Positions 23,585 to 52,343 of a stretch of DNA of 64,000 nucleotides are shown here, in pieces. The notes below the pieces were generated by a model, which was not told the DNA's origin, ran no database searches, and was given only the letters and a program-made list of their open reading frames with translations. The stretch comes from Jatrophihabitans cynanchi (GTDB lineage Bacteria; Actinomycetota; Actinomycetes; Mycobacteriales; Jatrophihabitantaceae). The DNA lies in contig NZ_CP097463.1 in NCBI RefSeq assembly GCF_027247405.1, positions 2,604,001 to 2,668,000 on the forward strand, read 5' to 3'. The translations under genes and the position numbers were made by a program. Position 1 is the stretch's first letter; each line of letters opens with the position of its first letter.

Positions 23585-23800
23585 CTACCTTTCGGGACGC
23601 TGCTCGCGCGGGGGCGTGCGATCGGTCGACGGCTTGTCCATCGCCGAGCGCACCAGGCCGAGCAGGATCGCGGCGACCGGGACGGCGATCAGGAACCGGA
23701 CCAGGGCGGTCTCGACCGAGATCGTCTGGTCGACCAACGCCTGCCACATCGTGGGCGCGGCGAACAGCAGCGCGCACAGCAGCACCGAGCCGCGGAACAT
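23585..23800 (-). CDS. 71-residue membrane protein ending the flhA transcript
   Basis: ATG 23800 overlaps the stop of the preceding flhF-like gene (TGATG), so translation is coupled. It has two hydrophobic segments (about 5-22 and 33-50) and a charged, Pro/Arg-rich cytoplasmic tail. I do not recognise a family. Its place as the last gene of flhA-(flhF-like)-x suggests a role with the export gate or with placement of the flagellum, but this is inference from position only. Confidence 0.65.
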   Translation of the reverse strand: MFRGSVLLCALLFAAPTMWQALVDQTISVETALVRFLIAVPVAAILLGLVRSAMDKPSTDRTPPREQRPER

Positions 23801-25128
23801 CAGCGTGCCAGTCCGGCGAGCTTGTCCAGCAGCAGCACGGCCCAGCTCGAGCGGGTCGGGACGGCGCCGTCGAGCAGGGCGACCGGGACGCCGAGTTGCC
23901 AGACGGACGCGGGGCTGGCGGTCAGCGCGGCGTTGTCGACCACGAGCGCATCCACGGTCCGGAACCCGGCGCTCAGCGCGCGCGTGTCGGCCGGCTTGCG
24001 GGTCGCGTCCACGTGCAGCAGCACGGCGTCCGGCGTGAGTGCCGCGATGACGTCCTGGGCCCACCCGGCGTCGTGCGCATCGTTCGCGATTGCGATGACG
24101 GCCGGACGGGTGCCGGTGAGGCGGTGGGCCGCGGCGACGATGGAGGCCTGCCACGGGTCGGCGACCTCGTGTGGTCCGGCGCAGCCCGCCGTCCACACCT
24201 CGTCGGCACTCAGCCGCAGTTGCGCCGCGATGGACCCGGCCGCATGCACGATCGCGTGCGCCGGCCCGACGACGGCGATGATGCGCCCGGGTGCCGCGGG
24301 CAGCGTGGGCGCCTGCGGCAGCCGGGTGACGAGTTCCTCGACTGCCGCGTAGCGATGTGCGGCGCCGGCCGGCACCCAGTCGACGGGCACGCCGATCTCG
24401 GTGAGGTCGCGGCGCAGCCCGAGATCGGAGGCGGCGGCCGGCACGGCGGGAGCCGCAGGAGCGGGCGCGGGAACAGCCGTCGGAGCTGTGCGGCCGGCGG
24501 CCGCGATCGGCTCGGGGATCGGTTCGAAGCTGGGGCGGAACTCGGCCGCCGCCGGGTCGGCCGACGCCTGTTCGGTCTTGGCCGCCTGCGACGGAGCCCA
24601 GGCCGGCACCTGGTGCCGGACCGGGAACTGGACCTGCTGCGGCTGGGACTGGACCTGCTGGGCCGCGGGCCGTGCCGGCTGTGGCACCGCCCGCTCGGCC
24701 GTCTTCTGTGCGGCCATGTCCAGCAGCAGCTGGGCGAACTCGGCGTTCGGGCCCTCCAGCCGAGCCGAAGCCGCGGTCCTGGCGGCCGGCGCGGGGGCGC
24801 CGGCGACGGGTGCGACGGTACCGGTGCGGTCGGCCGAGTCGGCCGCGTCGATCAGGGCGGCGAGCGGGTCACCGGCCAGGTTGCCCGGGTCGGCGAATCC
24901 GTCCGGGTGCGTTGCCGGGACGTCGGTGCGTGCCCGCTCGTACGGTGCTGGCGCGTCCAGGAGTTCGTAGTGCACGCCGACGAGCGGGCGGGCAAAGAAG
25001 CCGAGCACACCCCCGTCGCGCGCGTGCGTCACCTCGACGACATGTACCTGGCCCGGGTGCTCGGCGTCGAGGTCGGCCAGCAGGGCGTCGAGGTCGGGGC
25101 CCTCACGGTACAAGGTTGCGGACGTCAT
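23800..25128 (-). CDS. FlhF-like protein lacking the P-loop
   Basis: 442 residues. The N-terminus (LDALLADLDAEHPGQVHVVE followed by GGVLGFFARP) resembles the start of FlhF, the SRP-type GTPase that sets flagellar position and number. A long Ala/Pro/Gln-rich linker spans about 95-265. The C-terminal domain keeps the Rossmann-like pattern RIIAVVGPAHAIVHAAGS, VIAIANDAHDAG, VLLHVDATRKPAD and QLGVPVALLDG. Where FlhF has [10 protein letters not shown] it has GPAHAIVHAA, so the nucleotide-binding Lys is lost. It follows flhA with a 26-base overlap, the usual flhF position. I read it as a degenerate, possibly non-GTPase FlhF relative. Confidence 0.7.
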   Translation of the reverse strand: MTSATLYREGPDLDALLADLDAEHPGQVHVVEVTHARDGGVLGFFARPLVGVHYELLDAPAPYERARTDVPATHPDGFADPGNLAGDPLAALIDAADSADRTGTVAPVAGAPAPAARTAASARLEGPNAEFAQLLLDMAAQKTAERAVPQPARPAAQQVQSQPQQVQFPVRHQVPAWAPSQAAKTEQASADPAAAEFRPSFEPIPEPIAAAGRTAPTAVPAPAPAAPAVPAAASDLGLRRDLTEIGVPVDWVPAGAAHRYAAVEELVTRLPQAPTLPAAPGRIIAVVGPAHAIVHAAGSIAAQLRLSADEVWTAGCAGPHEVADPWQASIVAAAHRLTGTRPAVIAIANDAHDAGWAQDVIAALTPDAVLLHVDATRKPADTRALSAGFRTVDALVVDNAALTASPASVWQLGVPVALLDGAVPTRSSWAVLLLDKLAGLAR

Positions 25129-27145
25129 CGATCATCCCAATCGCGTTGACGGCGACCGAGCCGGCGGACAGCTCGGTATAGGACAGGACGGGCAGCGCGG
25201 GCACCGACAGGCGCACCAGCCGCCGCAGGGGCATGCGGATCTGCGCGGCGCAGACCAGGACCGGTTTGGTGCCGCGCGCGGACTCCTCGCTGTAGCGCTC
25301 GGCGATCGCGTTGATCAGGGCCTCGGCCATGCCGGGGTCGAGCACGAGCTGCGCGCCGCCGTCGCCGGGACGCACCGCCTCGAGCATCGCCTGCTGCATC
25401 CGCGGCTCGACGGTGAGCGCGTCCAGCTGGCCCTCGGTCGCCAGCGAGGCGGTGATCGCCGGGGCGAGCGCGCCGCGGGCGGCCTCGACGAGGCGGTCCG
25501 GGTCGGTGCCGCCCTTCGCGGCCACGGACAGCGCTTCGTAGATGCGGACGAGGTCGCGGATCGACACGCCCTCGTCCAGCAACGCGTGCAGCACCCGCTG
25601 GATCTCGCCGAGCGACAGCAGCGCGGGCGTGAGGTCCTCGACGACCACCGGGTGCGAACGCTTGAGCGCACGGGTGGCCGCGGCGACCTCCTCGCGGCCG
25701 AGCAGCCGGCTCGCGTGCTGGCGGACGATCTCGGACAGGTGCGTGATGATCAGCGACGAGCGGTCGACGACGGTGGCGCCGAGCAGCTCGGCCTGGCCGC
25801 GCAGCTCGATCGGCAGCCACTTGCCGGCGAGGCCGAACACCGGTTCGCGGGCCGGTTTGCCGGGCAGACCGTCCAGGCCGTCGCCGATCGCGAGGACCAT
25901 GCCGGCCGGCGCCTGGCCGCGGGCCAGCTCGACGGCGTTGATGTTGATCGCGTAGGTCGAGTGCGGCAGCGTGACGCTGTCGCGGGTGCGGACGGGCGGC
26001 ATGACCACGCCGAGCTCGGCGGCCAGCGTGCGGCGCAGCGCGCGAACCCGGTCGAGCAGGTCGGCGCCGGGGCCGTCGACGAGCGGGACGAGGTCGGCCG
26101 AGAGCACCAGCTCGAGCGGGTCGACGGCCAGCTCGCTGAGCAGGCTCTCCTCGGCGTTCGGTGCTGCGGCGTCGGTGGCCTCCTCGGCGACGGCCTCCTC
26201 GGCATCGGTCGGCTTCGGCAGCCGGCTGGCCATGAACATCAGCCCGCCGCCGACGAGCAGGAACGGCAGCTTGGGCAGGCCGGGGACGACGCACAGCAGC
26301 AGCGCGGCACCGCCGGCGATGCGCACCGCCCGGCGTTGCCCGCCGAGCTGGCGGGCCACGACCGTGCCCATGTCGTCGGAGTCGCTGGAGCGGGTCACGA
26401 TCAGGCCGGTCGACACCGACAGCAGCAGCGCCGGGATCTGGCTGACCAGGCCGTCGCCGACGCTGAGCAGGCTGTACGTCGACAGCGCCTGGCTCAGCGT
26501 CAGGTGGTGGGTGGTCATCCCGATCGCGAAGCCGCCGATCAGGTTGATGAACGTGATGATGATGGCCGCGATCGCGTCGCCCTTCACGAACCGCGTCGCG
26601 CCGTCCATCGCGCCGTAGAAGTCGGCTTCCGAGGCGATCTCGGCGCGCCGCTTGCGGGCAGACTTCTCGTCGATCAGCCCCGCGTTCAGGTCGGCGTCGA
26701 TCGCCATCTGCTTGCCGGGCATCGCGTCCAGGGTGAACCGGGCGCCCACTTCCGCGACGCGCCCGGCACCGTTGGTGATGACGATGAACTGGATGACCAG
26801 CAAGATCGCGAAGATCACCAGTCCGATCACCAGCGAACCGCCGATGACGAAGTGGCCGAACGCCGAGATGACGTTGCCCGCGAAGCCGTCGGTGAGCACG
26901 AGCCGGGTGGCGCTGATGTTCAGGGCGAGCCGGAACAGCGTGGCGACCAGGAGCAGCGACGGGAAGCTGGAGAAATCGAGCGGGCGCTTGACGTACATGG
27001 AGACGAGCACCACGAGCACGGCGCCGGTGATGTTCGCCGCGATCAGCAGGTCGAGCAGCGCCGCAGGCATCGGCACCACGAGCATCACGACGATCGCGAC
27101 GACGCCGATGGGCACGGCCAGTTGGCTGAGCCTGCCTGTCTTCAC
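25103..27145 (-). CDS. flhA: flagellar export gate protein FlhA
   Basis: 680 residues, normal length. FlhA forms the nonameric ring of the flagellar type III export gate. Eight membrane helices occupy residues 1-315. The FHIPEP-family cytoplasmic loop (ITNGAGRVAEVGARFTLDAM then PGKQMAIDADLNAGLI) is intact. The soluble C-terminal domain (about 330-680) binds export substrates and chaperones and includes GYTVVD-like LGATVVDRSSLIITHLSEI. An FliA-type promoter lies about 85 bases upstream. The 3' end overlaps the flhF-like gene. Confidence 0.98.
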   Translation of the reverse strand: MKTGRLSQLAVPIGVVAIVVMLVVPMPAALLDLLIAANITGAVLVVLVSMYVKRPLDFSSFPSLLLVATLFRLALNISATRLVLTDGFAGNVISAFGHFVIGGSLVIGLVIFAILLVIQFIVITNGAGRVAEVGARFTLDAMPGKQMAIDADLNAGLIDEKSARKRRAEIASEADFYGAMDGATRFVKGDAIAAIIITFINLIGGFAIGMTTHHLTLSQALSTYSLLSVGDGLVSQIPALLLSVSTGLIVTRSSDSDDMGTVVARQLGGQRRAVRIAGGAALLLCVVPGLPKLPFLLVGGGLMFMASRLPKPTDAEEAVAEEATDAAAPNAEESLLSELAVDPLELVLSADLVPLVDGPGADLLDRVRALRRTLAAELGVVMPPVRTRDSVTLPHSTYAININAVELARGQAPAGMVLAIGDGLDGLPGKPAREPVFGLAGKWLPIELRGQAELLGATVVDRSSLIITHLSEIVRQHASRLLGREEVAAATRALKRSHPVVVEDLTPALLSLGEIQRVLHALLDEGVSIRDLVRIYEALSVAAKGGTDPDRLVEAARGALAPAITASLATEGQLDALTVEPRMQQAMLEAVRPGDGGAQLVLDPGMAEALINAIAERYSEESARGTKPVLVCAAQIRMPLRRLVRLSVPALPVLSYTELSAGSVAVNAIGMIDDVRNLVP

Positions 27146-38163: not shown

Positions 38164-39171
38164 TCATGCCCCGCTCGCCAACATCGCGGTGATCCGGTGC
38201 ACGTAGTTCTGGGTCTCGGCGTAGGGCGGGATGCCGCCGTACTGTTGCACCGCCCCCGAGCCCGCGTTGTACGCGGCCAGCGCCAGCGGGACGGAGCCGA
38301 ATCGCGACAGGTTGCCGGACATGATCGTGGCGGCCGCGTTGATCGCCTGGTCCGGGTCGAACGCGTTGACGCCGAGGCCGGCGGCGGTCGACGGCATCAG
38401 CTGCATCAAGCCCTGAGCCCCGGCGGGGCTGACCGCGCGGACGTTGCCGCCGGACTCCTGCTGCGCCATGGCCGCGAGCAGGCCGCGGGGCAGACGGTGC
38501 TTGGCCTCGGCCGCGGCGAACTGGTCGGCGAACGCGGCGACGGACGAGGAGAGCCCGGCGGCGGTGAGCTGTTGGGCAGGGACGCCGGCGGTCGCCGCCG
38601 TGCTGCCCGTGGCTGCCGCGGCGCTGGGCAGGATGCGGCGGATCGACGTCGGCTTCTGGTAGACGTCGGTGATGTGCACCGTCTTGCCCGGCTCGGGTGA
38701 CTCGATCAGCTTGTTGTCGCCGAGGTAGATGGCGATGTGGTAGGCCGGGTTGCCGAAGGTCAGCAGGTCACCCGGCTGGGCCTGCGCGAGCGAGGGCACC
38801 TCGGTGCCCTCGTGTGCCTGGTCGGCGGCGATGCGCGGCAGGTCGATGCCGAGCTTGTGGTAGCTGGCCTGGACGAGGCCGGAGCAGTCGATGCCGGACC
38901 TCGACTCGCCGCCCCACACGTAGGGGACGCCGAGGTAGGTCTTCGCCTCGGCGACCACGTCGGCACCGGTCACCGCGCCGGTGGCCGAACCGGCGGTCGC
39001 CGAACCGGCGGTGGCGGCCGCCGCGGGGGCGGTTGCGCCGGCCAGCTCCGCGGCGAACCGGCTGCCGCCGATGGGCGCGCCGGGCGCCGGTGCCGACACC
39101 GAGGCGATCAGCGACTGGAGCTGCGCGATGTGCGCGGTGATCTGCGACAGCGCGGTGGCCGGTGCGGTCAT
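38164..39171 (-). CDS. bifunctional NlpC/P60 - SLT peptidoglycan hydrolase of the flagellar operon
   Basis: 335 residues. Residues 70-180 are an NlpC/P60 endopeptidase domain with Cys96 (GIDCSGLV) and His145 (AYHIAIYLGD). Residues 210-335 are a soluble lytic transglycosylase domain with Glu239 (MAQQESGGN), GAQGLMQLMPSTA and ALAAYNAGSGAV. There is no signal peptide: the N-terminus is a helical flagellar-like segment (TALSQITAHIAQLQSLIAS). Its location between fliJ and fliK suggests export by the flagellar apparatus to open the wall for the rod, replacing FlgJ. The start overlaps the fliJ stop (ATGA). Confidence 0.92.
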   Translation of the reverse strand: MTAPATALSQITAHIAQLQSLIASVSAPAPGAPIGGSRFAAELAGATAPAAAATAGSATAGSATGAVTGADVVAEAKTYLGVPYVWGGESRSGIDCSGLVQASYHKLGIDLPRIAADQAHEGTEVPSLAQAQPGDLLTFGNPAYHIAIYLGDNKLIESPEPGKTVHITDVYQKPTSIRRILPSAAAATGSTAATAGVPAQQLTAAGLSSSVAAFADQFAAAEAKHRLPRGLLAAMAQQESGGNVRAVSPAGAQGLMQLMPSTAAGLGVNAFDPDQAINAAATIMSGNLSRFGSVPLALAAYNAGSGAVQQYGGIPPYAETQNYVHRITAMLASGA

Positions 39172-40976: not shown

Positions 40977-41708
40977 TCATGGAGCGAGCACCTCGCGGAC
41001 GCGCTCCAGTGCGGCCCCGAGGCGGGCGTCGATCGAGGTGGCGCCGCTGCGGGCGAGCGCATCGCCCGGCGCCAGCGTGTCGTCGGCCCCGAACGTGATC
41101 GCCCGGCCGCCCTCGGTGCGCGTGGTGCCTTCGGCCCCGAGCGCCGCGAGGTCGGCGGGATGCAAGGTGACGCGGACGTCCTCGTCGCTGGGCGCGAGCG
41201 AGAGCGCTCGGGCCACGGCCGCGTTCGAGCGCAACTGCTCGTCGGCGAGGGTCCGGCCGATGAGCGCCTCGGCGATCGCGAACGCGGAGGACAGGATCAG
41301 CTGCTCGATCTGCTCGGCGGCCGGGACGGCGCGCTGCTCGAGCGCCCCGGCGGCCCGGTCGATCGCGGTGATCGCCTGGGCGAGCGCGGCACGCCGCGTT
41401 GCGCTCGCGCGATCGCGGTCAGCGGCCGCGACGTGTGCCTCGGCGTCGGCCACCAGCCGGGCGGCGCGGATGCCACTCGCCCAGCCGGCCGCGTACCCGG
41501 CGGCCTGGGCGGCGGCGCGGGCCGGGGCGAGCAGTTCGTCCGGGACGCCGGCGCGCGGTGCGATCTCGAAGACCGTGGCGGCTGCCTCGGGACGAACGGC
41601 GTCGGCCACGAAGGTGACGGCCGCGGCGGGGGGCGGGACCTGGCCGGTGCGCAGCTCGGCCAGCTCGAACTGCGGTGCCAGCTCAGGCGACGAACGCATC
41701 CTCATCAC
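40977..41708 (-). CDS. fliH: flagellar export regulator FliH
   Basis: 243 residues from GTG 41708; in-frame ATGs at 41705 and 41699 are equally plausible starts, and all overlap the fliG end. FliH inhibits FliI and links it to the C-ring. A central Ala/Glu/Arg-rich helix (about 85-145) precedes the conserved C-terminal V1/V-type E-subunit-like domain: [33 protein letters not shown] and a final [19 protein letters not shown]. The family is divergent; position between fliG and fliI supports the call. Confidence 0.92.
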
Positions 41709-42789
41709 CCCTTCCGACGATGATCTGGCCGGACTCCTCCAGCTCGCGGATGATCCGGACGATGCCGGCCTGCGCCTCCTCGACGACGTGCACGCGCACC
41801 GGGCCGAGCACCTCCACCTCTTCGGCGAGGTTGAGCGCCGCGCGCTCGGACATGTTCTGCATGATCCGGTTGCGCACCGAGTCCGCCACGCCCTTGAGCG
41901 CGGTGGCCAGGTCGTTCGTCTGCACCTGGCGCAGCACCAGTTGGATCGCGCGATCGTCCAGGCTGACCAGGTCCTCGAACATGAACATCTGGCTGCGGAC
42001 CTGTTCGGCGAGTGCCGGGTCGAGCTGGTCCAGGCCTTCGAGCAGCATCTTCTCGGTGCCGCGGTCGGCGCGGTTGATGATCTCGACCAGCGGGCCGAGG
42101 CCGCCCACGGTGGACAGGTCGCTGGCCAGGCCGAGCGAGGACAGCCGGCGCTCGAGCGCGGACTCGACCTGGCGGATCAGGTCCGGCGAGGTGCGGTCCA
42201 TCACCGCGATGCGGTGGGCGACGGTCGCCTGCAGGTCGCGCTGCAGGCCGGCGAGCACGTTCGAGGCGAGCCCGGCGGGCAGGTGCGCGAGCACCAGCGC
42301 GATCGTCTGGGGATGCTCGTCGGCGAGGAAGGACGTGACCTGGCGGGCGTCCAGGTTCTGCATGAAGGCGAACGGCAGTTCGACGAAGCTCTGCGAGAGC
42401 CGGTCCAGGATCTCGGTGCCGCGCGCCTCGCCGACCGCGGAGAGAAGCAGCTCGCGGGCCAGGTCCATGCCGCCGCGCGTCGTGGCGCCGCCGTTGGCCA
42501 GCACGCCGGCGAACTCGCCGAGCACCGCCGAGGCGACGTCGGGCGGCACGCTGCCGATGCGGGCGATCTCAGCACCGAGGTCCTCCAGTTCGGCCTCGCT
42601 GAGCTGGCCGAGCACGCGCGCGGACTCCTCGCGGCCGAGCTGCAACACCAGGATCGCGGCCTTCTGCCGTCCGCTCATACCGAGCAGCGGATCGGGGCCC
42701 GAGGGCGGGGTCGGCAGCGCGATCGGCAGCGGCACCGGGGCGGCGGCGAACTCCTCGAGCGGCAGGGAAAGGACCGAGGCTTCGGTCAT
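41683..42789 (-). CDS. fliG: flagellar motor switch protein FliG
   Basis: 368 residues. FliG couples the stator to the rotor. The N-terminal domain starts at MSGRQKAAILVLQLG, the middle domain contains the EHPQTIALVLAHLPAGLAS motif, and the C-terminal torque domain has MFMFEDLVSLDDRAIQLVLR followed by the charged ridge. About 35 Pro/Ala-rich residues precede the usual start. It overlaps fliH and begins two bases after fliF. Confidence 0.98.
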   Translation of the reverse strand: MTEASVLSLPLEEFAAAPVPLPIALPTPPSGPDPLLGMSGRQKAAILVLQLGREESARVLGQLSEAELEDLGAEIARIGSVPPDVASAVLGEFAGVLANGGATTRGGMDLARELLLSAVGEARGTEILDRLSQSFVELPFAFMQNLDARQVTSFLADEHPQTIALVLAHLPAGLASNVLAGLQRDLQATVAHRIAVMDRTSPDLIRQVESALERRLSSLGLASDLSTVGGLGPLVEIINRADRGTEKMLLEGLDQLDPALAEQVRSQMFMFEDLVSLDDRAIQLVLRQVQTNDLATALKGVADSVRNRIMQNMSERAALNLAEEVEVLGPVRVHVVEEAQAGIVRIIRELEESGQIIVGRGDEDAFVA

Positions 42790-47994: not shown

Positions 47995-48957
47995 CTACTG
48001 GAGCAGCTTGAGGATTGCCTGCGGTGCGGAGTTCGCCTGGGCCAGGACGCTGGTGGCGGCCTGGGTCAGGATCTGCGACTGCGTCATCTTGGTGACCTCG
48101 GACGCGAGGTCGGCGTCGGTCAGGTTCGACCGGGACGCGGTGACGTTGGTGATCGCGGTCTGCAGGTTGGTGACCGTGTAGTTGAGCTGGTTCTGCGTCG
48201 CACCGATACCCGACCGAGCCTCGGAGATCGTCGAGATTGCGGCATCGATCGTCGCCAGATCGTCGGTCGCCTGGGTTGTGCCGTAGGTCTTCAGCGCAGC
48301 GGTGCCTTCGTTGTCGGTGTACCCGGTGGTCCCGTCGTACTTGACGATGTTGAGGCCCGACAGCGTGGCCGTTCCGTCCGTGTTGGTCGACTTCGGGTCG
48401 GGGGCGCCGGCCGCAGGCGCTGTGAGAGCAGTGCTCGAGTTGCCGAGGACCCACGCTTGCACACCTGCGCCGCTCAGGTCGAGTCCGATGGTGTCGCCGC
48501 CGTTGGCGCCGACCTGGAAGTTCTTGCTGAAGTTGCCGTCGAGCAGGTTGGTGGCGCCGAACTTGGTCTGCCCGGCGATGTTGTCCAGCTGGCTGTTCAG
48601 CTTGCTGATCTCGCCCTGGATGGCCTTGAGCGAGGAGTCGTCCTGGGTGCCTTCGTTGCCGGCCTGCACGACGAGGGTGCGCATGCGCTGCAGGATGTTC
48701 TGGGTGGTGCCCAGGGCTCCGTCGGCGATCTGGGCGACGTTGATGCCGTCCTGGGCGTTGGAGACGGCCTGGGTCAGGCCGTTGATCTGGCTGGTCAGGC
48801 CCTGGCTGATCGACAGGCCGGCGGCGTCGTCGGCGGCCTTGTTGATCCGCAGACCCGAGGACAGCCGCTCGAAGCTGCTGGCCTGGGCGTTCTGGTTCGC
48901 GGCCAGGTTGTTGTAGGCGTTCAGTGCCGCGACGTTGGTGTTGATGCGAAGACTCAT
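47995..48957 (-). CDS. fliC: flagellin (copy 1, last in transcription order)
   Basis: 320 residues. The D0/D1 N-terminus MSLRINTNVAALNAYNNLAA and SSGLRINKAADDAAGLSISQ, and the C-terminus with LASEVTKMTQSQILTQAATS then VLAQANSAPQAILKLLQ, are complete. The central segment (about 160-235) is unique to this copy and short, so no large D2/D3 outer domains exist. It is the last of four tandem copies. The leader has the same SD-loop hairpin as the other copies, with an ACGGAC hairpin upstream. It is followed by a hairpin and then fliD. Confidence 0.97.
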   Translation of the reverse strand: MSLRINTNVAALNAYNNLAANQNAQASSFERLSSGLRINKAADDAAGLSISQGLTSQINGLTQAVSNAQDGINVAQIADGALGTTQNILQRMRTLVVQAGNEGTQDDSSLKAIQGEISKLNSQLDNIAGQTKFGATNLLDGNFSKNFQVGANGGDTIGLDLSGAGVQAWVLGNSSTALTAPAAGAPDPKSTNTDGTATLSGLNIVKYDGTTGYTDNEGTAALKTYGTTQATDDLATIDAAISTISEARSGIGATQNQLNYTVTNLQTAITNVTASRSNLTDADLASEVTKMTQSQILTQAATSVLAQANSAPQAILKLLQ

Positions 48958-48960
48958 GGT

Positions 48961-48975
48961 GTTTGCCTCCCAAAC
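48961..48975 (-). promoter_or_regulatory. SD-in-loop hairpin, candidate CsrA site (flagellin 1)
   Basis: On the minus strand GTTTG-GGAGG-CAAAC: a five-base stem presents the ribosome-binding GGAGG as the loop, three bases before ATG. GGA in a hairpin loop is the core CsrA target. The element is identical in all four flagellin leaders. Confidence 0.7.
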
Positions 48976-48998
48976 GCGAGTCCGTGCTTACGGGGGAA

Positions 48999-49020
48999 GG
49001 TGTGCCGTCCGTGGCGCACC
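48999..49020 (-). promoter_or_regulatory. upstream GGA hairpin in flagellin 1 leader
   Basis: Minus strand GGTGCGCC-ACGGAC-GGCACACC: seven of eight pairs with an ACGGAC loop, about 45-60 bases upstream of the start. It is a candidate second CsrA site; the loop is conserved in copies 2 and 3. Confidence 0.55.
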
Positions 49021-49072
49021 GGTCGTGCTGATCGAACTGGTCGTTCTGGTTGTGCGGGTCGTGCGGGTGGAG

Positions 49073-49117
49073 TCCGGGTCGGGCGGACCAGGTGGGGGTT
49101 GGTCCGCCCGACCCGGA
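49073..49117 (-). terminator. GC-rich hairpin after flagellin copy 2
   Basis: An 18-base perfect stem (49073-49090 with 49100-49117) and a nine-base loop. It begins about 20 bases after the stop at 49140. No U-tract follows. The same hairpin follows copies 3 and 4. Confidence 0.65.
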
Positions 49118-49139
49118 GCCGGTGGGCTGCTTCCGATTA

Positions 49140-50093
49140 CTACTGCAGCAGCTTGAGGATGGCCTGCGGGGCGGAGTTCGCTTGGGCGAGCACCGAGGTC
49201 GCGGCCTGGGTCAGGATCTGTGACTGCGTCATCTTGGTGACCTCGGATGCGAGGTCGGCGTCGGTCAGGTTCGACCGGGACGCCGTCACGTTCGTGATCG
49301 CGGTCTGCAGGTTCGTGACCGTGTAGTTGAGCTGGTTCTGCGTCGCACCGATCCCCGAACGGGCCGAGGAGATGTCCGAGATCGCCTGGTCGATCTTGGC
49401 GAGGTCGGCGCTGGACTGCGTCGAGTCGTACGTCGTGGGCACTGTGTACACAGTCGACGCAACGCCGGTCCCAGCGTTGGTGGTGGTCACGCCGCCAGCG
49501 ATTGCAAGAGCGGTTAGGTCCACGCCGCCGGTGTAGGTACCAGTCGTCTGGGTACCAGTCGGAGCCGCGTACGTGCCGCCGACCGCGTGAGCCGTCGTGG
49601 CGGCACCAGCGAGGTTCAATGCGATGGTGTCGCCGCCGTTGGCGCCGACCTGGAAGTTCTTGTTGAAGCTTCCGTCGAGCAGGTTGGTGGCGCCGAACTT
49701 GGTCTGGCTCGCGATGTTGTCGAGCTGGCTGTTCAGCTTCTGAATCTCACCGTTGATCGCCTTCAGCGAGGAGGCGTCCTGGGTGCCGGTGTTGCCGGCC
49801 TGCACGACGAGGGTGCGCATGCGCTGCAGGATGTTCTGGGTGGTGCCCAGGGCTCCGTCGGCGATCTGGGCGACGTTGATGCCGTCCTGGGCGTTGGAGA
49901 CGGCCTGGGTCAGGCCGTTGATCTGGCTGGTCAGGCCCTGGCTGATCGACAGGCCGGCGGCGTCGTCGGCGGCCTTGTTGATCCGCAGACCCGAGGAGAG
50001 CCGCTCGAAGCTGCTGGCCTGGGCGTTCTGGTTCGCGGCCAGGTTGTTGTAGGCGTTCAGTGCCGCGACGTTGGTGTTGATGCGAAGACTCAT
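49140..50093 (-). CDS. fliC: flagellin (copy 2)
   Basis: 317 residues. N- and C-terminal D0/D1 segments are nearly identical to the other copies. The variable segment (about 160-230) is Thr/Gly/Ala-rich (TAHAVGGTYAAPTGTQTTGT). Its 5' 300 bases and leader are identical to those of copy 3 as far as I can read, which points to recent duplication or gene conversion. SD-loop hairpin and ACGGAC hairpin lie upstream, and an 18-base-stem hairpin downstream. Confidence 0.97.
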   Translation of the reverse strand: MSLRINTNVAALNAYNNLAANQNAQASSFERLSSGLRINKAADDAAGLSISQGLTSQINGLTQAVSNAQDGINVAQIADGALGTTQNILQRMRTLVVQAGNTGTQDASSLKAINGEIQKLNSQLDNIASQTKFGATNLLDGSFNKNFQVGANGGDTIALNLAGAATTAHAVGGTYAAPTGTQTTGTYTGGVDLTALAIAGGVTTTNAGTGVASTVYTVPTTYDSTQSSADLAKIDQAISDISSARSGIGATQNQLNYTVTNLQTAITNVTASRSNLTDADLASEVTKMTQSQILTQAATSVLAQANSAPQAILKLLQ

Positions 50094-50096
50094 GGT

Positions 50097-50111
50097 GTTT
50101 GCCTCCCAAAC
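50097..50111 (-). promoter_or_regulatory. SD-in-loop hairpin, candidate CsrA site (flagellin 2)
   Basis: GTTTG-GGAGG-CAAAC on the minus strand, three bases before ATG; identical to the element before the other flagellin genes. Confidence 0.7.
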
Positions 50112-50127
50112 GTGAGTCGGATGAAGC

Positions 50128-50149
50128 GGCGCGCCGTCCGTGGCGGGCC
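50128..50149 (-). promoter_or_regulatory. upstream GGA hairpin in flagellin 2 leader
   Basis: Minus strand: seven of eight stem pairs around an ACGGAC loop, the same loop as in copies 1 and 3. Candidate second CsrA site. Confidence 0.5.
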
Positions 50150-50186
50150 GGTCGTACTGGTCGTGCTGGTTGTGCGGGTGGTGGAG

Positions 50187-50231
50187 TCCGGGTCGGGCGG
50201 ACCAGGTGGGGGTTGGTCCGCCCGACCCGGA
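50187..50231 (-). terminator. GC-rich hairpin after flagellin copy 3
   Basis: 18-base perfect stem (50187-50204 with 50214-50231), nine-base loop, 16 bases after the stop at 50247; no U-tract. Confidence 0.65.
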
Positions 50232-50246
50232 GCCTGTGGGCTGCTA

Positions 50247-51146
50247 CTACTGCAGCAGCTTGAGGATGGCCTGCGGGGCGGAGTTCGCCTGCGCGAGGAC
50301 CGAGGTCGCGGCCTGGGTCAGGATCTGTGACTGCGTCATCTTGGTGACCTCGGACGCGAGGTCGGCGTCGGTCAGGTTCGACCGGGACGCGGTGACGTTG
50401 GTGATCGCGGTCTGCAGGTTGGTGACCGTGTAGTTGAGCTGGTTCTGCGTCGCACCGATCCCCGAACGAGCCGACGAGATCTTGCTGATCGCCGAGTCGA
50501 TGGTGGCCAGGTCGGCCGTCGCGTCCGCTGTCGCGTAGGTGGTCGGCGGGGTGTATGTGACCGGCGTGCCGGCGACCGCGGTGCCCACGATCTTCAGTGC
50601 GGTCAGATCGACGCCGCCGGCGCCGTTGCCACCGACATCGCTGGAGGTGACATCCGAGCTCGACAGGTCGAGCCCGATGGTGTCGCCGCCGTTGGCGCCG
50701 ACCTGGAAGTTCTTGTTGAAGCTTCCGTCGAGCAGGTTGGTGGCGCCGAACTTGGTCTGGCTCGCGATGTTGTCGAGCTGGCTGTTCAGCTTGACGACCT
50801 CACCCTGGATCGCGGCGAGCGAGGACGCATCCTGGGTGCCCGTGTTGCCGGCCTGCACGACGAGGGTGCGCATGCGCTGCAGGATGTTCTGGGTGGTGCC
50901 CAGGGCTCCGTCGGCGATCTGGGCGACGTTGATGCCGTCCTGGGCGTTGGAGACGGCCTGGGTCAGGCCGTTGATCTGGCTGGTCAGGCCCTGGCTGATC
51001 GACAGGCCGGCGGCGTCGTCGGCGGCCTTGTTGATCCGCAGACCCGAGGAGAGCCGCTCGAAGCTGCTGGCCTGGGCGTTCTGGTTCGCGGCCAGGTTGT
51101 TGTAGGCGTTCAGTGCCGCGACGTTGGTGTTGATGCGAAGACTCAT
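50247..51146 (-). CDS. fliC: flagellin (copy 3)
   Basis: 299 residues, the shortest copy. The terminal segments match the other flagellins; the variable segment (about 160-215) is GLDLSSSDVTSSDVGGNGAG and a Thr/Ala-rich run. A block of about 690 bases covering its 3' end or 5' end, the spacer and the neighbouring copy is identical to the next repeat (49789-50474 versus 50842-51527). It has an SD-loop hairpin, ACGGAC hairpin and downstream hairpin like copy 2. I see no promoter motif of its own. Confidence 0.97.
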   Translation of the reverse strand: MSLRINTNVAALNAYNNLAANQNAQASSFERLSSGLRINKAADDAAGLSISQGLTSQINGLTQAVSNAQDGINVAQIADGALGTTQNILQRMRTLVVQAGNTGTQDASSLAAIQGEVVKLNSQLDNIASQTKFGATNLLDGSFNKNFQVGANGGDTIGLDLSSSDVTSSDVGGNGAGGVDLTALKIVGTAVAGTPVTYTPPTTYATADATADLATIDSAISKISSARSGIGATQNQLNYTVTNLQTAITNVTASRSNLTDADLASEVTKMTQSQILTQAATSVLAQANSAPQAILKLLQ

Positions 51147-51149
51147 GGT

Positions 51150-51164
51150 GTTTGCCTCCCAAAC
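51150..51164 (-). promoter_or_regulatory. SD-in-loop hairpin, candidate CsrA site (flagellin 3)
   Basis: GTTTG-GGAGG-CAAAC on the minus strand, three bases before ATG; identical in all four leaders. Confidence 0.7.
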
Positions 51165-51180
51165 GTGAGTCGGATGAAGC

Positions 51181-51202
51181 GGCGCGCCGTCCGTGGCGGG
51201 CC
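51181..51202 (-). promoter_or_regulatory. upstream GGA hairpin in flagellin 3 leader
   Basis: Identical to the element at 50128-50149: ACGGAC loop on an eight-base stem with one mismatch. Confidence 0.5.
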
Positions 51203-51239
51203 GGTCGTACTGGTCGTGCTGGTTGTGCGGGTGGTGGAG

Positions 51240-51284
51240 TCCGGGTCGGGCGGACCAGGTGGGGGTTGGTCCGCCCGACCCGGA
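51240..51284 (-). terminator. GC-rich hairpin after flagellin copy 4
   Basis: 18-base perfect stem (51240-51257 with 51267-51284), nine-base loop, 16 bases after the stop at 51300; no U-tract. If it stops part of the polymerases, copy 4 is made in excess of copies 3 to 1. Confidence 0.65.
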
Positions 51285-51299
51285 GCCTGTGGGCTGCTA

Positions 51300-52235
51300 C
51301 TACTGCAGCAGCTTGAGGATGGCCTGCGGGGCGGAGTTCGCCTGCGCGAGGACCGAGGTCGCGGCCTGGGTCAGGATCTGTGACTGCGTCATCTTGGTGA
51401 CCTCGGACGCGAGGTCGGCGTCGGTCAGGTTCGACCGGGACGCGGTGACGTTGGTGATCGCGGTCTGCAGGTTGGTGACCGTGTAGTTGAGCTGGTTCTG
51501 CGTCGCACCGATCCCCGAACGAGCCGAGGAGATTGCCGAGATCGCAGTGTCGATCTGGTTGAGGTCGTAAGCAGCCTCGCCCGAGCCGTAGACCTTGTCA
51601 CCCGCCACCGCGGTCGTCGTGCCGCCAACCAGGGTGTTGCCGGCGTAGCCCGCTCCCGCGCTGGTGTACTTGGCGATGTTCAGGGCGGTCAGGTCCGTGC
51701 CGCCCGACGAGCTAGCGCCGCCGACGAACTTCGAGTTGACGTTCGCGCTGGACAGGTTCAGCCCGATGACGTCACCGCCGTTGGCGCCGACCTGGAAGTT
51801 CTTGTTGAAGCCACCGTCGAGCAGGTTGGTGGCGCCGAACTTGGTCTGGCTGGAGATGTTGTCCAGCTGGCTGTTCAGCTTGACGATCTCACCCTGGATG
51901 GCCTTGAGCGAGGAGTCGTCCTGGGTGCCGGCGTTGCCGGCCTGCACGACCAGGGTGCGCATGCGCTGCAGGATGTTCTGGGTGGTGCCCAGGGCTCCGT
52001 CGGCGATCTGGGCGACGTTGATGCCGTCCTGGGCGTTGGAGACGGCCTGGGTCAGGCCGTTGATCTGGCTGGTCAGGCCCTGGCTGATCGACAGGCCGGC
52101 GGCGTCGTCGGCGGCCTTGTTGATCCGCAGACCCGAGGAGAGCCGCTCGAAGCTGCTGGCCTGGGCGTTCTGGTTCGCGGCCAGGTTGTTGTAGGCGTTC
52201 AGTGCCGCGACGTTGGTGTTGATGCGAAGACTCAT
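51300..52235 (-). CDS. fliC: flagellin (copy 4, first in transcription order)
   Basis: 311 residues from ATG 52235, the start shared with the other copies (the frame is open 30 codons further, through the leader). Conserved D0/D1 ends; variable segment about 160-230 (LNLSSANVNSKFVGGASSSGG). It is the promoter-proximal copy and the only one with an FliA-type promoter. The transcript would begin near 52309, right at a hairpin with two GGA motifs in its loop, followed by the SD-loop hairpin. Confidence 0.97.
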   Translation of the reverse strand: MSLRINTNVAALNAYNNLAANQNAQASSFERLSSGLRINKAADDAAGLSISQGLTSQINGLTQAVSNAQDGINVAQIADGALGTTQNILQRMRTLVVQAGNAGTQDDSSLKAIQGEIVKLNSQLDNISSQTKFGATNLLDGGFNKNFQVGANGGDVIGLNLSSANVNSKFVGGASSSGGTDLTALNIAKYTSAGAGYAGNTLVGGTTTAVAGDKVYGSGEAAYDLNQIDTAISAISSARSGIGATQNQLNYTVTNLQTAITNVTASRSNLTDADLASEVTKMTQSQILTQAATSVLAQANSAPQAILKLLQ

Positions 52236-52238
52236 GGT

Positions 52239-52253
52239 GTTTGCCTCCCAAAC
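52239..52253 (-). promoter_or_regulatory. SD-in-loop hairpin, candidate CsrA site (flagellin 4)
   Basis: GTTTG-GGAGG-CAAAC on the minus strand, three bases before ATG, the same as in copies 1 to 3. Confidence 0.7.
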
Positions 52254-52286
52254 GTGAGTCCTGAGGGGGTGGCCCGGGGGAGGGCC

Positions 52287-52308
52287 GTCGATCCGTCCAT
52301 GGGTCGAC
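52287..52308 (-). promoter_or_regulatory. 5'-terminal hairpin with two GGA motifs in flagellin 4 leader
   Basis: Minus strand GTCGA-CCCATGGACGGA-TCGAC: a five-base stem with a 12-base loop holding GGA twice. It is at the predicted 5' end of the mRNA, about 35 bases before the SD hairpin. Candidate high-affinity CsrA site; the two-site spacing recalls the Bacillus hag leader. Confidence 0.55.
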
Positions 52309-52315
52309 AGACTCG

Positions 52316-52343
52316 CTATCGGCACAGCCGCGCCGGCCTTGAG
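52316..52343 (-). promoter_or_regulatory. FliA-type promoter of the flagellin array
   Basis: Minus strand: CTCA (52343-52340), 16 bases, GCCGATAG (52323-52316). Expected start near 52309. Preceded by G, giving GCTCAAG, as at flhA and flgN. No other flagellin copy has such a motif. Confidence 0.8.

Follow-up and report, generated by a model that had tools for sequence, protein, structure and literature searches.

An FlhF homolog stripped of its GTPase motifs in Jatrophihabitans cynanchi and its apparent single origin in Actinomycetota

The flagellar gene cluster of Jatrophihabitans cynanchi raises the question whether the gene behind flhA still encodes an FlhF protein when the nucleotide-binding P-loop is gone, and what such a protein might do. 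We analyzed a stretch of 64,000 nucleotides of contig NZ_CP097463.1, called the window in the following, from a genome of 4.5 Mb in one contig. According to Pfam matches, its flagellar cluster encodes FlhB, FliR, FliP, FliL, MotB, FliI, FliG, and FliF; further members are FlgD, FliK, FliD, a hook or rod protein of the FlgE/F/G type, a sigma factor, and four flagellins. The flagellin genes lie in tandem (47998-52325, minus strand), and one protein of the cluster (38167-39171, minus strand) combines NlpC/P60 and transglycosylase SLT domains and probably opens the cell wall to let the rod pass. An earlier note on this DNA had placed an FlhF-like gene without P-loop at 23800-25128. These coordinates were exact, and we add the minus strand, which the note did not give, with the ATG at 25128 and the stop at 23800. 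The gene, here termed pseudo-flhF, and the genes relevant to it are:

23800..25128, minus strand: coding sequence of the P-loop-less FlhF homolog, 442 aa, assigned by same-slot homologs after flhA
25103..27145, minus strand: flhA, upstream neighbor of pseudo-flhF with a 26-nt overlap (Pfam FHIPEP, 1.1e-244)
23585..23800, minus strand: 71-aa protein with two predicted transmembrane segments, possible membrane partner; its ATG overlaps the pseudo-flhF stop
41683..42789, minus strand: fliG, presumed partner of the pseudo-FlhF N-terminal domain (Pfam FliG_N, FliG_M, FliG_C)

As the earlier note had stated, pseudo-flhF occupies the flhF slot directly after flhA in the flagellar cluster. The same holds true for its relatives, and the two genes overlap by 17-47 nt at nearly all P-loop-less loci.

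An AlphaFold2 model, together with the comparisons described below, divides the protein into two folded domains separated by a linker:

24955..25128, minus strand: N-terminal domain, aa 1-58, beta-alpha-beta-beta, with a GGxxGFF motif, homologous to the FlhF B-domain/FliG-interaction domain
24436..24954, minus strand: Ala/Pro/Gln-rich linker, aa 59-231, mostly disordered according to pLDDT
24691..24744, minus strand: short helix predicted by AlphaFold2, aa 129-146, with the linker motif FAxxL that is present in many relatives
23803..24435, minus strand: C-terminal pseudo-NG domain, aa 232-442, assigned by AlphaFold2, Foldseek, VIA, and hhalign
24238..24267, minus strand: degenerate G1/P-loop GPAHAIVHAA, aa 288-297, located by alignment to intact FlhF

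The long Ala/Pro/Gln linker described in the earlier note is visible in the model as low-pLDDT stretches at aa 64-86, 103-125, and 154-196. The layout is constant in the family, with an N-terminal domain of 55-60 aa, a linker, and a C-terminal domain of about 200 aa. The shortest linkers among the relatives have a few tens of residues, the longest about 1,400 aa. The pseudo-FlhF of locus L054 (5649-10628) reaches 1,659 aa owing to an extreme linker between the folded domains, and related proteins of Geodermatophilaceae have about 800-1,300 aa. The FAxxL motif, often FAxxLxxL, is repeated in the otherwise disordered linkers throughout the clade and also in some intact FlhF proteins (L178, L180, L182).

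The N-terminal domain could be linked to FlhF by sequence. A profile of the degenerate N-termini retrieved FlhF proteins of Bacillota and other phyla that are encoded beside flhA and nearly all have an intact P-loop, the best matches including FlhF of Fictibacillus (8.8e-13). The window protein itself matched no Pfam or NCBIfam model, TIGR03499 included, but 23 of the 30 members of the homolog alignment individually matched TIGR03499 FlhF (best E 1.4e-11). In the relatives inspected, these matches ran through the N-terminal positions and scored at most about 42 bits, so that the curated cut-off of 174 bits was not reached. The top sequence match in the PDB was the FliG-interaction domain (FID) 9EN1, albeit a weak one (E 0.11). 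The crystallized FliG-interaction domain consists, according to its description, of three strands and one helix (PMC11236974), in accord with the beta-alpha-beta-beta order predicted here. By its profile and TIGR03499 matches, the family thus has the N-terminal B-domain/FliG-interaction domain of FlhF, and the FlhF-like N-terminus noticed earlier holds up.

For the C-terminal domain, a profile built from degenerate domains only was used. It matched intact FlhF proteins of the same slot, the better matches having E values of 1.6e-7 to 6e-5, and gave no match with shuffled intact FlhF (50 copies each of 24 sequences); an SRP homolog of the own genome scored 0.23. Profile-profile comparison with ten intact FlhF proteins (hhalign) yielded an E value of 2.8e-6 with a probability of 88, and in a profile search of all PDB chains SRP54 came out on top (E 6.6e-4). 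AlphaFold2 predicted the structure of aa 238-442 from degenerate sequences only with a pLDDT of 95.8 and a pTM of 0.90. The matches listed by Foldseek for this model were SRP GTPases throughout, and VIA gave Z values of 16.0 for FtsY, 15.8 for FlhF 8R9R, and 15.1 for FlhF 2PX3. Predicted structure and profiles therefore agree in the SRP-type NG fold of FlhF. We conclude that the window protein is FlhF-derived, both of its domains being homologous to those of FlhF.

The nucleotide-binding motifs of this fold have largely disappeared. In the window protein, IIAVVGPAHAIVHAAGSIAAQL occupies the position of ALIGPTGAGKTTTIAKLAARY in intact FlhF, the replacement already recognized in the earlier note. 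Among 56 alignable degenerate NG domains, the first P-loop Gly is present in all 56 and the P-loop Lys in none, a pattern that exceeds chance; the G1 motif GxxxxGK[ST] of FlhF is absent. The I-box/DTYR region (G2) falls into a gap in about 52 of the 56 domains, the Gly of DTAG (G3) in about 51, and TKxD (G4) is unconserved. With the G1-G4 signature destroyed at the sequence level, the suspicion that the SRP-type GTPase is dead appears justified. A P-loop shifted to another position among the orthologs, which the earlier note had considered, does not occur, as the clade's degenerate proteins contain no G-x4-GK[ST] at any position; since the frame is open and the flanks are conserved, a frameshift artifact was likewise rejected. 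A second, intact FlhF was not found elsewhere in the window's genome, which contains only two strong SRP54 matches, presumably Ffh and FtsY. An SRP-GTPase domain stripped of its G motifs should neither bind GTP nor form a GTP-bridged homodimer. Judging from the lost motifs, both the GTP-dependent homodimer and FlhG-stimulated GTPase activity are expected to be absent in degenerate FlhF.

Homologs of the 442-aa protein were present in 23 of 61 genomes, the own one included, and a profile from 19 homologs led to further members in the class and phylum; a search of the plasmid collection gave no match. We inspected the gene after flhA at about 100 loci and obtained the slot protein at 87, of which 24 have the P-loop motif and 63, counting the window, do not; P-loop-less loci cut by contig ends are part of the 63 and were dropped from later counts. 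Among the organisms named here, which were reached through an FlhA search, a P-loop-less slot gene was found in Dactylosporangium, Pseudosporangium, Modestobacter, Blastococcus, Geodermatophilus, and Klenkia, and also in Cellulomonas, Arthrobacter, Cryobacterium, Naasia, Occultella, and a Nitriliruptoraceae bacterium. In the Acidimicrobiia-like rows L218-L236 the C-terminal domain, assigned there by position, N-terminal domain, and shared motifs and not by a profile match, is reduced even further.

In a tree of 102 FlhA proteins, obtained by a quick IQ-TREE search and having some long branches and an unsure deep root, the P-loop state changes once. The P-loop-less rows all fall into a single clade (65 rows, support 100), together with a few rows whose slot gene was not readable; the clade takes in rows of Actinomycetes, Acidimicrobiia, and Nitriliruptoria. 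Lineages near this clade with the P-loop intact are Miltoncostaeaceae and the f74 rows, its sister. This tree places the loss of the FlhF nucleotide-binding machinery in a single ancestral event, at the point where the clade begins. The earlier note had envisaged a distinct way of placing flagella in actinomycetes; Actinomycetes are indeed included, but the trait is not peculiar to them, the loss being ancestral and common to three classes. In a 2023 survey, the three later actinobacterial classes that are devoid of FlgF/FlgG were reported to be devoid of FlhF as well (PMC10746217). Judged by the named rows, the P-loop-less clade corresponds to these three classes (PMC10746217), and the statement on FlhF therefore needs correction: the later classes are not without FlhF, most of the flagellated loci sampled in them still carrying a degenerate copy, which corrects the flagellar parts list. 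The gene was not found by whole-genome profile search in flhA-bearing Nocardioides, Aeromicrobium, and Microbacterium (loci L268, L272, L274). Because some flagellated members have lost the gene altogether, degenerate FlhF is not indispensable for the flagellum.

FlhG is the GTPase activator of FlhF. In line with the earlier note, no FlhG is encoded near pseudo-flhF, and a ParA/MinD match with the DQAxxLR motif was not found in the window's genome either. This genome-wide absence covers the window's genome, the figures for the other loci being adjacency counts: flhG adjoins the slot gene at none of 55 P-loop-less loci, compared to 10 of 22 loci with P-loop. The actinobacterial loci L178, L180, L182, L193, L194, L195, and L200 have an intact P-loop but no adjacent flhG, which makes them intermediates between the FlhF/FlhG arrangement and the pseudo-GTPase. 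Since several P-loop lineages near the clade lack an adjacent flhG, the gene arrangement suggests that FlhG was lost before the GTPase motifs.

On the other side of pseudo-flhF, the 71-aa two-transmembrane protein has no Pfam match. Small ORFs with two transmembrane segments also lie 3' of pseudo-flhF in near relatives; other families are less certain. We rejected this protein as a proven partner, as the unrepeated profile firmly links close relatives only and the iterated one strayed into out-of-frame ORFs of L213 and L214. At loci L238-L249 and L251, which belong to several families, the two-transmembrane protein is replaced by a protein of about 210 aa that by eye looks PilZ-type.

Selection on the gene was estimated by simple dN/dS counts in GC-rich DNA for 13 related species pairs. 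Values for the N-terminal domain were 0.00-0.32 in 10 of the 13 pairs. For the pseudo-NG domain, five pairs gave a dN/dS of 0.09-0.15 and the remaining pairs one of 0.24-1.0, and the linker was looser than the folded domains. The folded domains are thus mostly under purifying selection; the pseudo-NG domain is not tightly constrained everywhere, with values of 0.5-1.0 in some pairs.

These data bear on several ways of reading the C-terminal domain. An unrelated Rossmann-like fold might have taken the place of the NG domain, and the identity to solved SRP GTPases is very low indeed (10-20%). The profiles, which match intact FlhF from the flhF slot and, PDB-wide, SRP54, as well as a structure list filled by SRP GTPases with Z values of 14-16, make this scarcely credible; the structure prediction proposed as a check in the earlier note thus returned the SRP NG fold and not an unrelated one. 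Degenerate FlhF could also be a decaying relic without present function, in agreement with the lost catalytic site, the relaxed linker, and the missing gene in some flagellated lineages. We regard decay as very unlikely, as the open frame and the gene overlap have been maintained over three classes, the N-terminal domain is under purifying selection in most pairs, and a common fold is confidently predicted. Likewise improbable, if a little less so, is that the domain is still a switch which uses another small molecule or nucleotide instead of GTP. The invariant first Gly of the loop, followed by an alanine-rich helix, would fit such a ligand, and the PilZ-type-looking next gene in some families might hint at c-di-GMP; however, each of Lys, DTAG Gly, I-box, and TKxD is lost or unconserved, and a new conserved polar loop was not seen.

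Because degenerate FlhF keeps both folds and has lost the switch and its activator, a constitutive tether is the most likely reading, and by analogy the protein probably takes part in early flagellar assembly as a tether that works independently of nucleotide. In this role, its N-terminal domain would keep FliG, and via FliG also FliF, at a fixed site, the pseudo-NG domain would dock on a membrane or landmark partner, and the linker would set the reach; placement or timing would thereby be freed from the GTP/FlhG cycle. We infer the two binding functions from FlhF of Shewanella putrefaciens, whose first 60 residues bind FliG and whose NG domain attaches to HubP, a pole protein, irrespective of nucleotide (PMC11236974). 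In FlhF of Pseudomonas aeruginosa, the assembly domains (B, N) are separable from the polar-siting domain (G), and FliG binding is GTP-dependent (PMC12713375); tethering without nucleotide is therefore not universal. FipA is a membrane protein and partner of FlhF (PMC12826062), and in loose analogy the two-transmembrane protein may be guessed to be a candidate anchor.

Instead of a tether for placement, pseudo-FlhF might be an assembly factor, the contact between its N-terminal domain and FliG timing the assembly of C-ring and export gate and the pseudo-NG domain binding FlhA or another basal-body protein. The overlap with flhA, kept nearly throughout the clade, would suit such a role, which is also plausible in view of the finding that FlhF-bound FliG of Shewanella cannot bind FliM/FliN (PMC11236974). 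The documented role of the equivalent Shewanella domain, however, is landmark binding by NG, and the present data do not separate assembly from placement, so that we consider a pure assembly factor doubtful but worth keeping in mind. In either case, bacteria with degenerate FlhF probably place or assemble their flagella without a GTP switch. Returning to the tether, we tentatively propose, as a scenario that may or may not hold in full, that the FlhF/FlhG switch was dismantled in one ancestor of the three classes and that a switchless FlhF tether places flagella without FlhF GTP cycling or FlhG, with the two-transmembrane protein as a possible anchor.

No report of a GTPase-less FlhF was found in a body of literature that omits most subscription papers, and as far as this literature shows, a pseudo-GTPase FlhF that is ancestral to three classes is new. 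If FlhF was kept despite the loss of GTP binding and FlhG, the clade is a natural experiment in which the tether function is separable from the switch. In motile actinomycetes such as Actinoplanes, pseudo-flhF may offer a single-gene handle on site choice by flagellated spores.

Compared with known systems, pseudo-FlhF shares with FlhF (TIGR03499; PDB 2PX0, 2PX3, 8R9R; FID 9EN1) the slot after flhA, the FID-type N-terminus, a disordered linker, and the NG fold. Unlike FlhF, it lacks the P-loop, I-box, DTAG, TKxD, and an adjacent FlhG, and in its family linkers reach about 1,400 aa and scores stay far below the TIGR03499 cut-off. The nearest intact relatives are the FlhF proteins of basal Actinomycetota (L184, L190, L178, L180), which have the same slot and homologous domains; they differ by an intact P-loop GxxGxGK[ST], with flhG next to the gene at L184 and L190 but not at L178 and L180. 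The SRP GTPases Ffh and FtsY share the NG fold with the C-terminal domain of pseudo-FlhF, but they lack the FlhF N-terminal domain and are active GTPases.
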